From an uncultured bacterium (GTDB lineage: Bacteria > Cyanobacteriota > Vampirovibrionia > Gastranaerophilales > Gastranaerophilaceae), in assembly GCA_902775025.1 (NCBI GenBank), contig CACYKP010000010.1, positions 1 through 34,539 of the forward strand: DNA of 34,539 nucleotides, given 5' to 3'. Of the stretch, positions 6,107-27,303 are shown piece by piece; position 1 is the stretch's first letter; each line of letters opens with the position of its first letter. A program made the translations under genes and the position numbers. A model generated the notes under the pieces. It worked only from the letters and a program-made list of their open reading frames with translations, made no database searches and was not told the DNA's origin.

Positions 6107-6243
6107 AAAAAACTCCTATTTTATCTTAAATTCCCTACATATATAAAAAGAGTTTTTTATTAAAAATTGCTTTTTTTTTACAATTGTTTACAAAGAGAGA
6201 AAATATTTGCACATGATAATAATTTTTACAGAGTATATCACAA

Positions 6244-6639
6244 TTATTCATCAAGTTTTTTTACTATTCCGTTAGGATACAGCTTAACGAGAAAACCTGT
6301 TTCATCAACATCATATACCCAATCACCATCTGTTTCTTCATTAAAAAATTCATAAGGATCCTGCTCGTTATAATGTAAGTTACTTATACTGTCCGTGCTA
6401 TATTTTGAGGACTTTTTTATAACGTTTCCTGTAGCTATAGATATGTTTGCTTTTGCATCATAAACCTTATTTTTTGTTTTATTATCATTTTTTGTTTCTA
6501 TATTTGATGCATAAACAAATGTATTATTGTCATTATTTTTATTAAAATCTTCAGTATAACATGAAGCTTTTGATGTGCTGATAATTCCTGATAAAAATGC
6601 TGCTCCCAATAATACTTTAGGTGTAAATGTTACTTTCAT
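6244..6639 (-). CDS. Hypothetical exported protein
   Basis: This 131-residue protein has a probable signal peptide. A basic start (MKVTFTPK) is followed by the hydrophobic stretch VLLGAAFLSGIIS and a likely cleavage region around TSKAS (residues 22-26). The mature part is low-complexity Asn/Lys/Asp/Thr-rich and ends in a short beta-like acidic segment (DGDWVYDVDETGFLVKLYPNG). The Cys after KAS is not in a convincing lipobox, so a lipoprotein is possible but unsupported. A GAGGT Shine-Dalgarno-like site lies upstream of the ATG. Function is unknown; the neighbours are also small uncharacterised proteins. Confidence 0.65.
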   Translation of the reverse strand: MKVTFTPKVLLGAAFLSGIISTSKASCYTEDFNKNNDNNTFVYASNIETKNDNKTKNKVYDAKANISIATGNVIKKSSKYSTDSISNLHYNEQDPYEFFNEETDGDWVYDVDETGFLVKLYPNGIVKKLDE

Positions 6640-6755
6640 TGCTATTTTACCTCACCATGCGTAATTTATATAATCATATTTTATCACATAATATTTGTCT
6701 TACAATAGCTTTGCAAGTAAAATCAGTAAAATATATTAATATATTAAATTATTTG

Positions 6756-6932
6756 TTAGATTAATAAATAATTATCATTAATGTTTTGCACAAATGTTTT
6801 TTTATAACTTTTAGGTATTGTTACAAAAACATATTCTGTTTTCTTTTTTAGACCGCTTAAGCCTATAACTGAATCATCTTTACCTAAGTTATCTTTAACA
6901 AAGTTAAATAGATTTTGAATACTTTTTTCCAT
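6756..6932 (-). CDS. Small hypothetical protein, 58 aa
   Basis: A short ORF starting MEKSIQNLFNFVKDNL and ending INDNYLLI fills most of an otherwise empty gap. It has a good ribosome binding site (GAAAGGA) 7 bases before the ATG. The sequence alternates charged and hydrophobic residues, with a TEYVFVTIPKSYKK segment in the middle. It looks like a small folded cytoplasmic protein, with no signal peptide or membrane helix. It is divergent from the DUF1858 gene at 7053. Function unknown. Confidence 0.55.
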   Translation of the reverse strand: MEKSIQNLFNFVKDNLGKDDSVIGLSGLKKKTEYVFVTIPKSYKKTFVQNINDNYLLI

Positions 6933-6959
6933 AAATACTGTCCTTTCTTGCTGTTTGTG

Positions 6960-6968
6960 TGATATAAT
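6960..6968 (+). promoter_or_regulatory. Candidate extended -10 promoter for the DUF1858 gene
   Basis: TGATATAAT (TG-n-TATAAT) is an extended -10 box 84 bases before the start at 7053, in the gap shared with a divergent small gene. No good -35 box is visible. Between it and the gene a GGATT...AATCC hairpin lies at 7018-7031. Confidence 0.45.
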
Positions 6969-7052
6969 AACATTGTTGTATTAATGAAAAAAATATAAAT
7001 GTCAAAAAATGTATGTAGGATTTACTAATCCGAGAATATAAGGAGATAACAA

Positions 7053-7253
7053 ATGGAAAAAGTTACAAAAGATATGGGAATTATTGAAATTGTACAAGCA
7101 CATCCTGAAGCAGCAATGGTATTTCAAAAATACGGTATGGGTTGTTTAGGTTGTGCAGCAGCTAGATTTGAAAACCTTGAAGCAGGTGCTAAAGTTCACG
7201 GATTCGATGCAGACCAAATGGTTGCTGAGATTAATGAACTAATCGGCGCATAG
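7053..7253 (+). CDS. DUF1858 domain protein (hybrid-cluster-protein-associated redox disulfide type)
   Basis: This 66-residue protein consists of one DUF1858 domain, the small fold related to the ScdA N-terminus. Members pair a CxxC motif with redox or iron-sulfur proteins. The CxxC is visible at GMGCLGCAAA (about residues 29-36), preceded by the conserved V..HPEAAMVFQKYG helix and followed by LEAGAKVHG. Its precise partner is unknown; no hybrid cluster protein or ScdA body is in this window. AAGGAG lies 8 bases before the ATG, a strong ribosome binding site. It appears monocistronic. Confidence 0.85.
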   Translation: MEKVTKDMGIIEIVQAHPEAAMVFQKYGMGCLGCAAARFENLEAGAKVHGFDADQMVAEINELIGA

Positions 7254-18623: not shown

Positions 18624-19229
18624 TTACATAAATTGATTATGTACTTTTTCCCAACCTACTGTCGTAGCTTCTCCATGTCCGGGGTAAATTATGGTATCAT
18701 CGGGAAGTGTAAATATTTTTGTTTTTATACTTTTTACAATTTGTTTAAAATCTCCGCCTTCCATATCACATCTACCTATGGATTCTTTAAAAATTGTATC
18801 ACCTGAAAACAGCATATTGTTGATCAAATAGCAAACTCCACCTTGAGTATGTCCGGGAGTATGAATTACTTGAATTTTGTGATTACCAACATTCAATATA
18901 TCGCCGTCATTTATAAATATATCAATTTCGGGAATTTTAATATCAGGTATTCCAAATGCTGATAAATACTGATTCGATTGACTTAAAATCCTCAAGTCGT
19001 TTTTATGCATAACAATTTTAGCATCAGTAGGACGTATTCCTGCAATATGATCGAAATGTCCGTGAGTTAATAATATGTACTTTAACTTTGCGCCAAATTC
19101 TTCCAGTGATTTTTTTATATTGCTATCGACAGCTGAACAATCAACCAATATAGCCTCTTTAGATTCTTCATCTATTAGGAGGTAGTTATTATTGTCAATA
19201 GGTGGTTCTTTAAATATTTTTAACTGCAT
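18624..19229 (-). CDS. Metallo-beta-lactamase-fold hydrolase (glyoxalase II-like)
   Basis: This is a 201-residue MBL-fold enzyme. The zinc-binding motif THGHFDH (His56, His58, Asp60, His61) is intact, and further ligands appear in HTPGHTQGG, GDTIF and YPGHG. The short length and the HTPGHTQGGVCYL segment are typical of the YcbL/GloB2 subgroup, which hydrolyses thioesters such as S-lactoylglutathione analogues. The true substrate is unknown. No recognition domain beyond the core fold is present. It is the last of a minus-strand set (glycogen-synthase-like gene, 75-aa gene, this gene) with gaps of 21 and 44 bases. Confidence 0.85.
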   Translation of the reverse strand: MQLKIFKEPPIDNNNYLLIDEESKEAILVDCSAVDSNIKKSLEEFGAKLKYILLTHGHFDHIAGIRPTDAKIVMHKNDLRILSQSNQYLSAFGIPDIKIPEIDIFINDGDILNVGNHKIQVIHTPGHTQGGVCYLINNMLFSGDTIFKESIGRCDMEGGDFKQIVKSIKTKIFTLPDDTIIYPGHGEATTVGWEKVHNQFM

Positions 19230-19273: not shown

Positions 19274-19501
19274 TTAATAGTCCTGATCGCTGCACAAGTA
19301 TTGCTTATTTAAGTTAACAGCTTTTTTTTCAAATTTGTCAAGATTTGCAGGTTCATCACATAAGTATGAACGATTTAATTCGTTGCACACATCAGGATTT
19401 GTAAAATCCAAGTTATTAAATGAGGTGCGTACATGTTTTACAATTGCTCCTGTAGCGAGAGCTGTTCCGATATCAATTCCTGCTATTTTTACTATGTTCA
19501 T
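19274..19501 (-). CDS. Small hypothetical protein, 75 aa
   Basis: I do not recognise this small protein. Its first 20 residues are hydrophobic (IVKIAGIDIGTALATGAIVKH) and could form a weak membrane anchor or signal-like helix. The rest is Asn/Asp-rich with three Cys residues (NPDVCNELNR, SYLCDEPAN, QYLCSDQDY), two in a repeated YLCD/YLCSD pattern. It lies between the MBL and glycogen-synthase-like genes, 21 bases from the latter, and a GAAGG ribosome binding site precedes the ATG. The two genes may be cotranscribed. Confidence 0.55.
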   Translation of the reverse strand: MNIVKIAGIDIGTALATGAIVKHVRTSFNNLDFTNPDVCNELNRSYLCDEPANLDKFEKKAVNLNKQYLCSDQDY

Positions 19502-19522: not shown

Positions 19523-22294
19523 TTAACCTATACATGAAAGATGTCCCGGCTCTTTTTCTTCTGTAAAATGAGGATTAAGCCAACCTGTTTTATATCCAAT
19601 GTACCCCAATCCGGAAATTATTGCAGCACCCCCAATAATACCTGCTGTCCATTTTCCGCATTTAGAGTTTAATAATTTTTTCATTTTATTTTCGAGTGGG
19701 ACTGTTTTACTTTTTTCAGTTTTATTTAATTTTGATAAATCTAATTTTAATTCTTCACCTTTATTTAAGTTTTTGTTTCCATAAGCGGTATTATAATGCA
19801 TTTCCCTTACTAATTGAGCGGTAGATTTTCCATTAGGGTTGCACCAACCGTTTTCTTCCCATGTTGTTTTTAAATCCATATGGTTTTTTAGAATTTTCTT
19901 GGCTGTATCAGTATTCCTGTCGTTAATCGCTCTTTCTATTGAATCGGCCATTTCGTCAGAAATTACAGCATCTCTTAGTTTCTGAAGAGCATCTGTATAT
20001 TTTTTATTGTTTTTTAGTTGTTTTTTGAATAACTCATCGGGAATGTCTTCTCCGATTTTTGATTTGTAATCTTTTTTTAGTTCTTTAACAACATTATCTT
20101 TAGCTTTATTAAATTCTTTTACATCTTCTTCTTTTGCATATTTTATAGCTTCTTCTTCCGACATGTAATATTCATGTTGACCTTTGTATCCGTTTACAAA
20201 CCTTGCTTTGTCTGATTTTTCAGATGGGTCAAACACCTTTTGATCCATACCTTGAACTTTTGGAACTATAGGAATACAACCTTTTTTCATTGATTCTAAA
20301 TCCGTAAGCTCGCAAGGTGCAAATCTTGATGCTAATGGTGCATAATCGCCGGCTGCTGCAAAACTGGTTCCAGGCGCCCAGCCGTCCAGACAGATAAACC
20401 GTCCTTTTAATAAAGGATCTTTTTCGTATTTATCAAGCAGTTTTGTCATTGTATCTTTAAGGTTCGTCATATCACCGCCGATGATAAATATTGAGTTTGT
20501 ATTGCCTGTTTTCTTAACAAATTTAGCCCAAGCCTCAAGACCTGTGTCCATACCTTTCTGGAAGTCGCCTCTGCCCCAGCTTACAAACATAGGAACATCT
20601 TTTTTACTTTCCAATAAATCAATATAACGCTTGTCTATTCCGCCTATAATTTCAAATTTCCTTCCGGTACCGCCTGTTATGGCTGCAGAGTATCCTGTGC
20701 CGGAATCTAACCATTGCATGGTTCCATCTTTGCCTTTACCCCAGAGCATAGATTCATCAAAATCCTTGTTTAATCTTTTTAACAGACTTATTTTATTTTT
20801 ACGTTTTACTTCTCTAAGATGATCTAAATCATACTTTTTATCTGCTTGAATTGCTTCAAATTTAGGAAGTGTAATCTCTTTTCCTTCTTTTGTTTTTATT
20901 TTACAGTCTTTTTTGTAATATTCTTGTAAACCATCTGTTGTAAGACCGGAGGTCATCGGATCCATTAAAACATTAATAATACCTCTAAATACACCTTTGT
21001 CGCTTAATTCTTTAAGTCTTTTATGCAGAGCAGGTGAAACTAACTCATTGTCAATAAGACTTTGATAATAATTGTGTGATACCGTTGTAAACATAGGTAC
21101 ATATCCCTTTTCACCATAAGCAATCGGGAACATTACCGCATTGATTTGTCCTCTGCCGTCTAAAATTTCTTTTGGTAATAAACTTTTTAGAAATGCATCT
21201 TCTTTTCCATCTAAAAGAGCTTGCCTATATTGTTTGCTGTTAACTATTTTTTCTATTTCACCGGGTTTTGCCAGTGTAATAAGAGCATCTTTTGTTCCTA
21301 ATTCATACATATATCCATCACAAAGGTTATGACCGTAAGCAGTTAAAATTTTATCTTTATAATAATCGACACCGCTGGCATTTTTTTCTGCTATAAATTG
21401 TATCAAAGGCATTGCTTGACCATCATGGCAAGTTATAAATTTAGGGTCAAAACCCAGTTTTTCTTTTAATATCGGTAATAACTCCGCCGTGGCTTTAGCT
21501 TCTTTTGCATAAGGCTTACCCTGCCAGTTGTACGACAATTTTTTTGCTTCAGCATTCCCTGTAGTAGTTGCATAACTGCCGTCAGCATAAGGTTTTGCCA
21601 TGCTTGCTGTTGAATCAACATAAGTCATGGTAATGTCAATTTTATTTATTTGTTCTTCACTCCATCCTTTAGATTTCAAAAAGTTTTTTGTCTTATCGTC
21701 TTTTCTTAGTATATACATTCCCGTAGGAACTTCTTTTTCCAAGCCCCAATCCATCGTTTTTGAACCTAATTCGTCAACTATAAATACTTTATTGTAGTTT
21801 TCCGATTTAGCAAGTTCTTCTACTAAATTTGTATCTTTGCCGATTTGAATACTGGTTGTAAAAACTTGTCCTTCGTATGGTTTGAAAGGATGGTCGCTTG
21901 CCAATCCGGTTGGTATTCTTCTAAGCTTAACACCATCAGGTTTTATGCCTGCAAGTTTTCCGTCTTTATCAATATCTTTCACATAAAGTACTTCTTGATT
22001 GTACAATGGAATATTTTCTACAACTCTGTCAAAATCTTTTATATCATTGTGTGAAAGGGGAAAGAAAAATAAATCGTTACCAACCGTACCAACTCCTCCG
22101 CCTGATTGTCCGAATATTTGCATCTCAGATATTTGGTGGAATAAATGCTTGTCGTTTCCTCCTTTGAAGGCTAACGTTGAAATTCCGTCCCTATGTCTAA
22201 AGCTCGAATCCGAAATTTTTTTTATTTCGTCGTTTTTAATTTTCAATCCGCTATTATGGATTGAATGGTCAGCACTAATCGCACTAATTCGCAT
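19523..22294 (-). CDS. Divergent glycogen/starch-synthase-like GT5-type protein with C-terminal membrane helix
   Basis: This is a 923-residue protein with a GT-B glycosyltransferase (GT5-like) core. The N-terminal KTGGL motif of true synthases is changed to QSGGG (about 63-67), so the nucleotide-sugar lysine is missing. HD at 290-291 and Arg575...Lys580 (RGDFQKG) are kept. The EPCGL motif reads APCEL (SRFAPCELTDL, 656-666), so Ala659 stands in place of the catalytic Glu. A hydrophobic helix at about 884-902 suggests membrane attachment. The HD-to-R spacing is about 285 residues, twice the usual 140. The start is fixed by AAGGAG 8 bases before ATG 22294; an ATG 18 bases upstream has that site inside it. 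Probably not an active standard synthase. Confidence 0.7.
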   Translation of the reverse strand: MRISAISADHSIHNSGLKIKNDEIKKISDSSFRHRDGISTLAFKGGNDKHLFHQISEMQIFGQSGGGVGTVGNDLFFFPLSHNDIKDFDRVVENIPLYNQEVLYVKDIDKDGKLAGIKPDGVKLRRIPTGLASDHPFKPYEGQVFTTSIQIGKDTNLVEELAKSENYNKVFIVDELGSKTMDWGLEKEVPTGMYILRKDDKTKNFLKSKGWSEEQINKIDITMTYVDSTASMAKPYADGSYATTTGNAEAKKLSYNWQGKPYAKEAKATAELLPILKEKLGFDPKFITCHDGQAMPLIQFIAEKNASGVDYYKDKILTAYGHNLCDGYMYELGTKDALITLAKPGEIEKIVNSKQYRQALLDGKEDAFLKSLLPKEILDGRGQINAVMFPIAYGEKGYVPMFTTVSHNYYQSLIDNELVSPALHKRLKELSDKGVFRGIINVLMDPMTSGLTTDGLQEYYKKDCKIKTKEGKEITLPKFEAIQADKKYDLDHLREVKRKNKISLLKRLNKDFDESMLWGKGKDGTMQWLDSGTGYSAAITGGTGRKFEIIGGIDKRYIDLLESKKDVPMFVSWGRGDFQKGMDTGLEAWAKFVKKTGNTNSIFIIGGDMTNLKDTMTKLLDKYEKDPLLKGRFICLDGWAPGTSFAAAGDYAPLASRFAPCELTDLESMKKGCIPIVPKVQGMDQKVFDPSEKSDKARFVNGYKGQHEYYMSEEEAIKYAKEEDVKEFNKAKDNVVKELKKDYKSKIGEDIPDELFKKQLKNNKKYTDALQKLRDAVISDEMADSIERAINDRNTDTAKKILKNHMDLKTTWEENGWCNPNGKSTAQLVREMHYNTAYGNKNLNKGEELKLDLSKLNKTEKSKTVPLENKMKKLLNSKCGKWTAGIIGGAAIISGLGYIGYKTGWLNPHFTEEKEPGHLSCIG

Positions 22295-22554
22295 AGAGAA
22301 CTCCTTACACACATAATTCTTTTATCTTATATATATAAAAACCTGTTACCAAAAAAAATTAACAAATTTTCCATGAATATTAAGATTTGTTAAGTAAATT
22401 TTTGTAAAGATTTATTATATCTCTCTCCTTAACTTATATTATCAAATTTTTTAAATAAAAACAATAATATTAAGGGACGATATTTTGTAAAACGTATGTT
22501 TATATTTAACTGCAATAAATTTGAATAAATTCCATTATTAATACAAGAAAAATG

Positions 22555-22684
22555 ACATTCAGCAAAAGCTCTCCGGCTCCGCTCGTTCGCACCGAACCGA
22601 CCAAAGTCGTTTTTCCCCATCGCCCATCTGATAATAAAAATAGCCTCCCGAAGGAGGCTATCTTTATTTGCCGATGGTCGGGGT
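22555..22684. repeat. Direct repeat, distal copy, with tRNA-Leu 3' remnant
   Basis: This copy of about 130 bases is nearly identical to 22741-22872. It runs from ACATTCAGCAAAAGCTCTCC to the last bases of a tRNA-Leu 3' end (TGCCGATGGTCGGGGT). It therefore carries a truncated tRNA acceptor/T-arm end plus the terminator. Confidence 0.85.
22634..22661 (-). terminator. Terminator hairpin, distal copy
   Basis: Minus strand: ATAGCCTCC-TTCG-GGAGGCTAT followed by TTTTT; a perfect 9-bp stem with a UUCG tetraloop. Confidence 0.85.
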
Positions 22685-22740
22685 TGTCTTGCTCACTCGC
22701 GTTGAACGGCAACTCCGAGTTTTGCATCATGTTCTTACGA

Positions 22741-22872
22741 ACATTCAGCAAAAGCTCTCCGGCCTCCGCTCGCTCGCGCCGAACCGACAAAAAGTCGTTT
22801 CTCCCCATCGCCCATCTGATAATAAAAATAGCCTCCCGAAGGAAGCTATCTTTATTTGCCGATGGTCGGGGT
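22741..22872. repeat. Direct repeat, proximal copy, overlapping tRNA-Leu 3' end
   Basis: This is the proximal copy of the 130-base repeat. Its right end is the 3' end of the intact tRNA-Leu gene. A unique 56-base spacer (22685-22740) separates it from the distal copy. Confidence 0.85.
22822..22849 (-). terminator. tRNA-Leu terminator
   Basis: Minus strand: ATAGCTTCC-TTCG-GGAGGCTAT followed by TTTTT, with one G-T pair. It begins 8 bases after the tRNA 3' end. Confidence 0.88.
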
Positions 22873-22940
22873 CGAACCGACACGTAGTTGCCTACACCAG
22901 ATTTTGAGTCTGGCACGTCTACCAATTCCATCACATCGGC
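22857..22940 (-). tRNA. tRNA-Leu (anticodon CAA)
   Basis: The minus strand folds as a class II tRNA of 84 bases. The acceptor stem is GCCGATG/CATCGGC with discriminator A. The anticodon arm is CCAGA-CTCAAAA-TCTGG (anticodon CAA). A long variable arm (TAG-GCAA-CTA) and the T arm GTCGG-TTCGACC-CCGAC follow. CCA is not encoded. A false protein reading frame across this gene (MELVDVPDSKSG...) was ignored. Confidence 0.95.
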
Positions 22941-23057
22941 ATGACCTATGTTAATTGTATTAAAACAAAAAAATATTTTTATTTCAAATACTTTATTTAA
23001 AAAAAATTATACAAATGGGGAATAAAACAACTTTTGCTTTTTTTTCATTATGTTTTT

Positions 23058-26796: not shown

Positions 26797-27303
26797 ATGC
26801 AAATAAATGCCGTATCAAACACAAACTTTCAAGCAAAAGACCATTATTTATCTAATCAGGCAAGAGTAAATGCCCAAAAGCTTTTGCAAAAGATGAATAA
26901 TAACAATAAATATAAATTAAATGCCGAAAAAACAGGCTGGCAGGCAGATATATTATCAAGTTTATCAACAGGCAAAAATGTTAAATTTACTGATACACGC
27001 TATTTCTCCCAACAGGAGAATAATGTTCAAAGAAAGGCTGATACATTTCGTTGCTATCAACAAATGGACAATGTTCAAAAAAAGACTGATGTAGCAGATT
27101 TTTTTATGACAATAGGTAAAAATCAGCTAATGGCAAATAGTGAAACCGGTAGAATATTAATGTATAAAACAGGTATTTTTACGTCTTTAAGCAGAGTTAT
27201 ATCAAAAGCTGAAAAATATATAGATTTTTTGTTAAAAAATTTTGAAAATTCTAATGAAGTAAAACAGCATAGGTTTGGTACAGTTCTATTTAAAAAGAAT
27301 TAA
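26797..27303 (+). CDS. Hypothetical protein, 168 aa, with FQAK N-terminal motif
   Basis: I do not recognise this protein. The first residues, MQINAVSNTNFQAKD, match a pattern seen in other proteins of the window (a short Ile/Ser/Asn lead and a F-K/Q-G/A motif). The remainder is helical and Asn/Gln/Lys-rich, with RKADTFRCYQQMDNVQKK and a C-terminal FLLKNFENSNEVKQHRFG. It has no membrane segment. GGAG precedes the ATG. It lies 17 bases before maf and 51 after the radical SAM gene, so it may share their transcript. Function unknown. Confidence 0.6.
   Translation: MQINAVSNTNFQAKDHYLSNQARVNAQKLLQKMNNNNKYKLNAEKTGWQADILSSLSTGKNVKFTDTRYFSQQENNVQRKADTFRCYQQMDNVQKKTDVADFFMTIGKNQLMANSETGRILMYKTGIFTSLSRVISKAEKYIDFLLKNFENSNEVKQHRFGTVLFKKN

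Follow-up and report, generated by a model that had tools for sequence, protein, structure and literature searches.

A candidate re-tooled GT5 glycosyltransferase with a coupled glutamate switch and an exchangeable core in uncultured rumen and gut bacteria

In crystal structures of starch synthases, which with glycogen synthases are the closest structural matches of the protein analyzed here, the lysine of the KTGGL motif and the aspartate that follows it contact the ribose, an arginine/lysine pair together with main-chain nitrogens of a glycine and a leucine hold the phosphates, and a glutamate contacts O3 of the donor sugar (PMC6086201). We compared with these GT5 enzymes a protein of 923 amino acids that is encoded in the window, that is, the whole analyzed stretch of DNA of 34,539 nucleotides. 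Its minus-strand gene starts with an ATG at position 22294 and ends at position 19523, with a Shine-Dalgarno sequence, AAGGAG (22301-22306, minus strand), six bases upstream of the start codon; it is present in a single copy in its own genome. In plants, a non-canonical GT5 relative with altered catalytic parts, starch synthase 5, exists beside the canonical synthases, as is the case here. In the window protein, by contrast, both GT-B domains are present, and the altered site is strictly conserved.

When the window protein alone was searched against Pfam, no glycosyltransferase match was obtained; a profile of its family matches GT5 structures. The NCBIfam glgA model TIGR02095 gives the protein 49 bits, far below the cut-off of 328. 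In a structure model built on 43 relatives (pLDDT 85, pTM 0.82), the GT-B core, residues 48-839 (19778-22153, minus strand), matches starch synthase IV (Z 24.5) and E. coli glycogen synthase (Z 23.4). The top structural matches are GT5 structures (E. coli 2qzs and 3cop, Arabidopsis 6gne; about 20% identity), and the best Foldseek match, 3cop, is by chance the E377A mutant of the E. coli enzyme. The match to GlgA-type structures (Z 23-24) bears out a GT-B fold of the GT5 type, in line with the glycogen synthase-like protein of the preliminary description. That description also listed a long insert; extra sequence is indeed present, but against the canonical GlgA of the same genome it is spread over more than ten separate inserts, of which the largest lie near residues 105-170, 513-563 and 728-781. 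Altogether, the window protein differs from GlgA by about 300 extra residues, a leader and a likely C-terminal anchor. The family is under strong purifying selection, with dN/dS of 0.04-0.14 for pairs of close members, and given these values, a pseudogene reading of the 923-aa ORF is unsupported.

The catalytic columns were read from an alignment of 50 family members, including the window protein, with the canonical GlgA (L074) of the same genome. The HD and R...QKG motifs are retained, as had been noted from the sequence: H290-D291 lies at 21422-21427 and R575...Q579-K580-G581 at 20552-20572 (both minus strand), with R, Q and K in all 50 members and Ala in place of G581 in 17. The column of the histidine before the aspartate holds Ser or Asn in 44 of the 50, which says little because the canonical GlgAs of this lineage also have Asn there. 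Also shared with GT5 GlgA are the HN, GG and PC motifs. The equivalent of KTGGL, S64-G65-G66-G67-V68 (22091-22105, minus strand), has lost the lysine; it had been read as QSGGG, which was right about the loss but one residue off, given that K15 of GlgA aligns with S64, the residue after Q63. The lysine is present in only 11 of the 50 members, and the column of D21 of GlgA, T70 in the window protein, holds Thr in 49. In place of EPCGLTQL.., the window protein has A659-P-C-E662-L-T-D665-L-E667 (20294-20320, minus strand). E377 of GlgA aligns with A659, so that the earlier reading of APCEL, with Ala for the catalytic Glu, stands; across the family, this column holds Ala in 48 members and Met in 2. 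What the preliminary description did not include is that a Glu at +3 (E662), an Asp at +5 (D665) and a Glu at +8 (E667) are each invariant in all 50 members. Thus, the position of the KTGGL lysine drifts, and A/M-P-C-E-L-x-D-x-E, the Arg and the Lys are fixed. Taken with the residue roles in the starch synthase structures (PMC6086201), these columns indicate a site that has retained its phosphate clamp and exchanged the residues that contact ribose and sugar.

The window protein also resembles GT4 enzymes with the EX7E motif (BshA, MshA, GlgM) in having a GT-B fold (Z about 18) and a glutamate, invariant at +8, where that motif has its second Glu. In contrast to these enzymes, the first Glu of EX7E is Ala, and both the sequence and the structure are nearer to GT5.

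Across the sequences compared, the loss of Glu at the E377 position is strictly coupled to the gain of a Glu three residues on. Among 77 scored sequences (with four distant sequences without the motif beside them), the two positions read A..E in 56, M..E in 2 and E..G in 19, and no mixed state was found. A careful tree requires three changes of this switch (bootstrap range 3-3), the well-supported branches force at least two, and a single origin, with all A..E sequences held together, is rejected (p-AU 5.8e-6); the phylogeny hence indicates that the swap arose more than once. Two E..G sequences within the family, L203 (SRFEPCGLTDLE at the motif) and L204 (SRFEPCGLTDIE), combine the Asp at +5 and the Glu at +8 with the canonical Glu and Gly. 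Support for their placement is no more than moderate (88/89), so they may be either ancestral-like or paired reversals. The coupled switch, together with the low dN/dS, argues for a working, re-tooled site and against decay. At the level of sequence, it further suggests that another acidic residue, E662, may have taken over the E377 position, the very outcome that the preliminary description had named as speaking against its own reading. A second group of GT5-like paralogues of about 870 aa (L057:977-3562, L058:1039-3660 and L059:1186-3795) retains KTGG, carries FAPFELVQLQ with the same paired Glu relocation and has YE in place of HD.

Profile matches at E ≤1e-40 were obtained from 16 of 244 genomes sampled across the phylum, all from one family. 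A search with the window protein adds members from a different family of the order (L052, L053, L056), and a relative with the canonical motif is encoded in two genomes of yet another family (L054, L055). The group is one of uncultured rumen and gut bacteria, probably Gastranaerophilales-like; the best PDB match of RpoA is 8syi, a cyanobacterial structure, with scores nearly as high for other phyla.

Outside the GT-B core, the protein consists of two terminal modules. Residues 1-47 (MRISAI...LAFKGGN; 22154-22294, minus strand) form a detachable leader, a feature missing from the preliminary description, and its type is common to unrelated proteins of the lineage; residues 1-43 are modeled with pLDDT below 50. 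At the other end, the last 45 or so residues comprise a predicted membrane helix (residues 878-903; 19586-19663, minus strand) and a tail of conserved pattern close to GWLSPKFEEEKKPGHLSCVG, which in the window protein spans residues 904-923 and ends in GHLSCIG (19526-19585, minus strand). The C-terminal transmembrane helix reported earlier is thus predicted and conserved in the family, but it is only modestly hydrophobic in the window protein, where the best 19-residue Kyte-Doolittle mean is 1.35 (family median 1.51; at least 1.2 in 49 of 50 members and at least 1.6 in 19). Positive charge is greater before the helix than after it in 43 of the 50 members. From these predictions, a C-terminal membrane anchor is likely.

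The leader type, M[KRQ][IV]xxI...F[KGQ][GA], heads many unrelated proteins, for example, at 22154-22294 and 26797-27303 in the window and at L075:606-2207, L075:2216-3742, L146:989-3763 and L122:14822. Of 103 ORFs that begin in this way, 52 have it at residues 5-55, and roughly half of these belong to the GT5-derived family; at residues 55-105, it was found in 1 of 97. Two of the bearers are UshA-like 5'-nucleotidases, members of a usually exported family, in which it takes the place of an expected Sec signal, and the leader may be an unrecognized sorting signal. Within the literature on this lineage, we found nothing on point for glycogen or N-terminal motifs.

The leader and the C-terminal anchor flank a glycosyltransferase core that, as judged from sequence comparison, is swapped between species and can be of a second type. 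In the clearest pair, L103 and L106, the flanking DNA is 95-97% identical, the neighboring MBL-fold protein 99%, the leader 100% and the tail 90%, whereas the core is only 46% identical, and the high similarity ends at the leader/core and core/helix borders. Similar cases are L018 and L024 with L034, L003 with L029, and L016, L017 and L023 with L028; in the reverse case of L029 and L030, the core is 97% identical and the leader 59%. Over 23 loci, the Spearman correlation with the identity of the neighboring MBL gene is 0.38 for the core, compared with 0.63 for the leader and 0.60 for the tail. Four genomes (G004, G008, G031 and G034) combine the same kind of leader and tail with a very different, type II core in which EPCG is kept; it adjoins the MBL gene in three of them, and in G031, that gene was found on a different contig, at its end. 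The type II cores (L142:4674-7352, L060, L061 and L062) are 21-22% identical to three type I proteins, and two of them have Cys for the KTGGL lysine. Chimeric metagenome assembly may have created some such cores in single cases, but it is unlikely to be the general cause because there are several independent cases, in some of which the ends have diverged since. A search for a silent-cassette shuffling store in the genome found none, the tail being single copy and the 5' region having short partial matches only. Carriage by phages is unsupported as well, with no relative in the viral contigs searched.

Within the genus, the usual downstream neighbor of the gene is one and the same MBL-fold, glyoxalase II-like hydrolase (18624-19229, minus strand, in the window), and the other neighbors differ; G037 and G051 have the MBL gene next to its usual neighbors with no glycosyltransferase gene of this kind between. 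Nearly all genomes have one copy, and G040 (6% contamination) has a second, different one. In the window, a small ORF (19274-19501, minus strand) between the two genes encodes a 75-aa Cys-containing protein (CNELNRSYLCDEP...YLCSDQDY) with a relative, of 77 aa, in the L129 locus only. The locus is surrounded by genes for housekeeping and flagellar functions, for the MBL hydrolase and for leader-bearing proteins without an assigned function; glycogen genes do not adjoin it, and no glycogen operon was seen. The canonical GlgA, a GH57 branching enzyme and an alpha-glucan phosphorylase are encoded elsewhere in the genome, and therefore, glycogen synthesis need not depend on the GT5-derived protein. 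PADLOC gave no match for this protein, and for the MBL neighbor nothing beyond a weak match to LmuA that covers 46 residues. A family of about 210 aa without a Pfam match (L145:4684-5307, L198:686-1348 and L206) often adjoins the locus, also in another genus, and is encoded elsewhere in the window's own genome. In L106, a radical SAM gene (6153-7226) that is absent from the core-swapped partner L103 separates the glycosyltransferase and MBL genes. Upstream of the gene, the window contains a tRNA-Leu(CAA) gene (22856-22941, minus strand), two direct repeats of about 187 bases (98% over 82 bases) that follow it within 22555-22941, and a probably spurious 142-aa ORF (22506-22934).

We favor the interpretation, at a probability of roughly 0.55, that the protein is a neofunctionalized, GT5-derived retaining glycosyltransferase with a cassette core, and probably a tail-anchored protein on the cytoplasmic side of the membrane. 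R575, K580, G66/G67 and L663 would clamp the donor diphosphate as in GlgA. With the ribose contacts (the KTGGL Lys, and Asp21, now Thr) and the O3-holding Glu gone, and Glu at +3, Asp at +5 and Glu at +8 fixed instead, E667 may have taken on ribose binding and E662 the recognition of sugar hydroxyls, and the donor would probably be other than ADP-glucose. The preliminary description had left a choice between a transferase with a different donor and a pseudoenzyme scaffold, both anchored at the membrane; we prefer the former because of the coupled swap, its repeated origin, the invariant phosphate residues and the strong purifying selection, with the anchor upheld by prediction only. The scaffold alternative, a dead GT5 fold that would bind a glucan, a nucleotide or a partner, strikes us as rather unlikely. 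Its appeal is that three residues (the catalytic Glu, the Lys of KTGGL and Asp21) are lost, that a separate canonical GlgA exists, and that conserved pseudoenzymes too can be under strong selection; starch synthase 5 would be a parallel. Two points count against an active transferase: without the Lys and Asp21, the site may bind no nucleotide sugar at all, and in E. coli, the E377A change is reportedly strongly damaging. The fixed A/M..E, D+5, E+8, Arg and Lys, the coupled and recurrent Glu swap and the intact clamp nevertheless speak against a dead fold.

If the moved Glu did the work of E377 with ADP- or UDP-glucose, the protein could be a glycogen or starch synthase making a special alpha-glucan at the membrane. 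The nearest structures are such synthases, and the coupled relocation could preserve function, but the replacement of the ribose-contacting Lys and Asp, the canonical GlgA of the genome, the low glgA model score and the lack of adjoining glycogen genes make this improbable. Less probable still is that the leader is an unrecognized export signal and that the enzyme works outside the producer's cytoplasm: the occurrence of the leader type on unrelated proteins, including the two 5'-nucleotidases, and the differences of the locus between species fit such a role, but that role is putative, no secretion genes adjoin the locus, and a glycosyltransferase outside the cell would require a supply of donor.

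Under the favored reading of a re-tooled transferase, the core, which is present nearly always once per genome as an exchangeable cassette between the conserved leader and the C-terminal anchor, might determine the sugar placed on a membrane-proximal or envelope acceptor, with variety selectively favored, for example, by phages. Because of the core exchange, the product may be under diversifying selection, as envelope glycans are; both the acceptor and the sense of the exchange are conjectural. More tentatively, the locus as a whole may be a cassette locus that moves between species, in which a targeting leader and an anchor surround at least two types of glycosyltransferase core, some with a relocated Glu, and which diversifies an envelope or exported glycan, by analogy with capsule or restriction specificity genes, which are exchanged likewise.

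If the moved Glu works, a donor site of the GT5/GT4 type would be rewirable by a coupled two-residue switch, with more than one origin, and this would help in judging from sequence data whether a transferase is re-tooled or dead. The core-exchange locus, in turn, hints that uncultured gut bacteria have a variable sugar modification, possibly one related to the cell surface.
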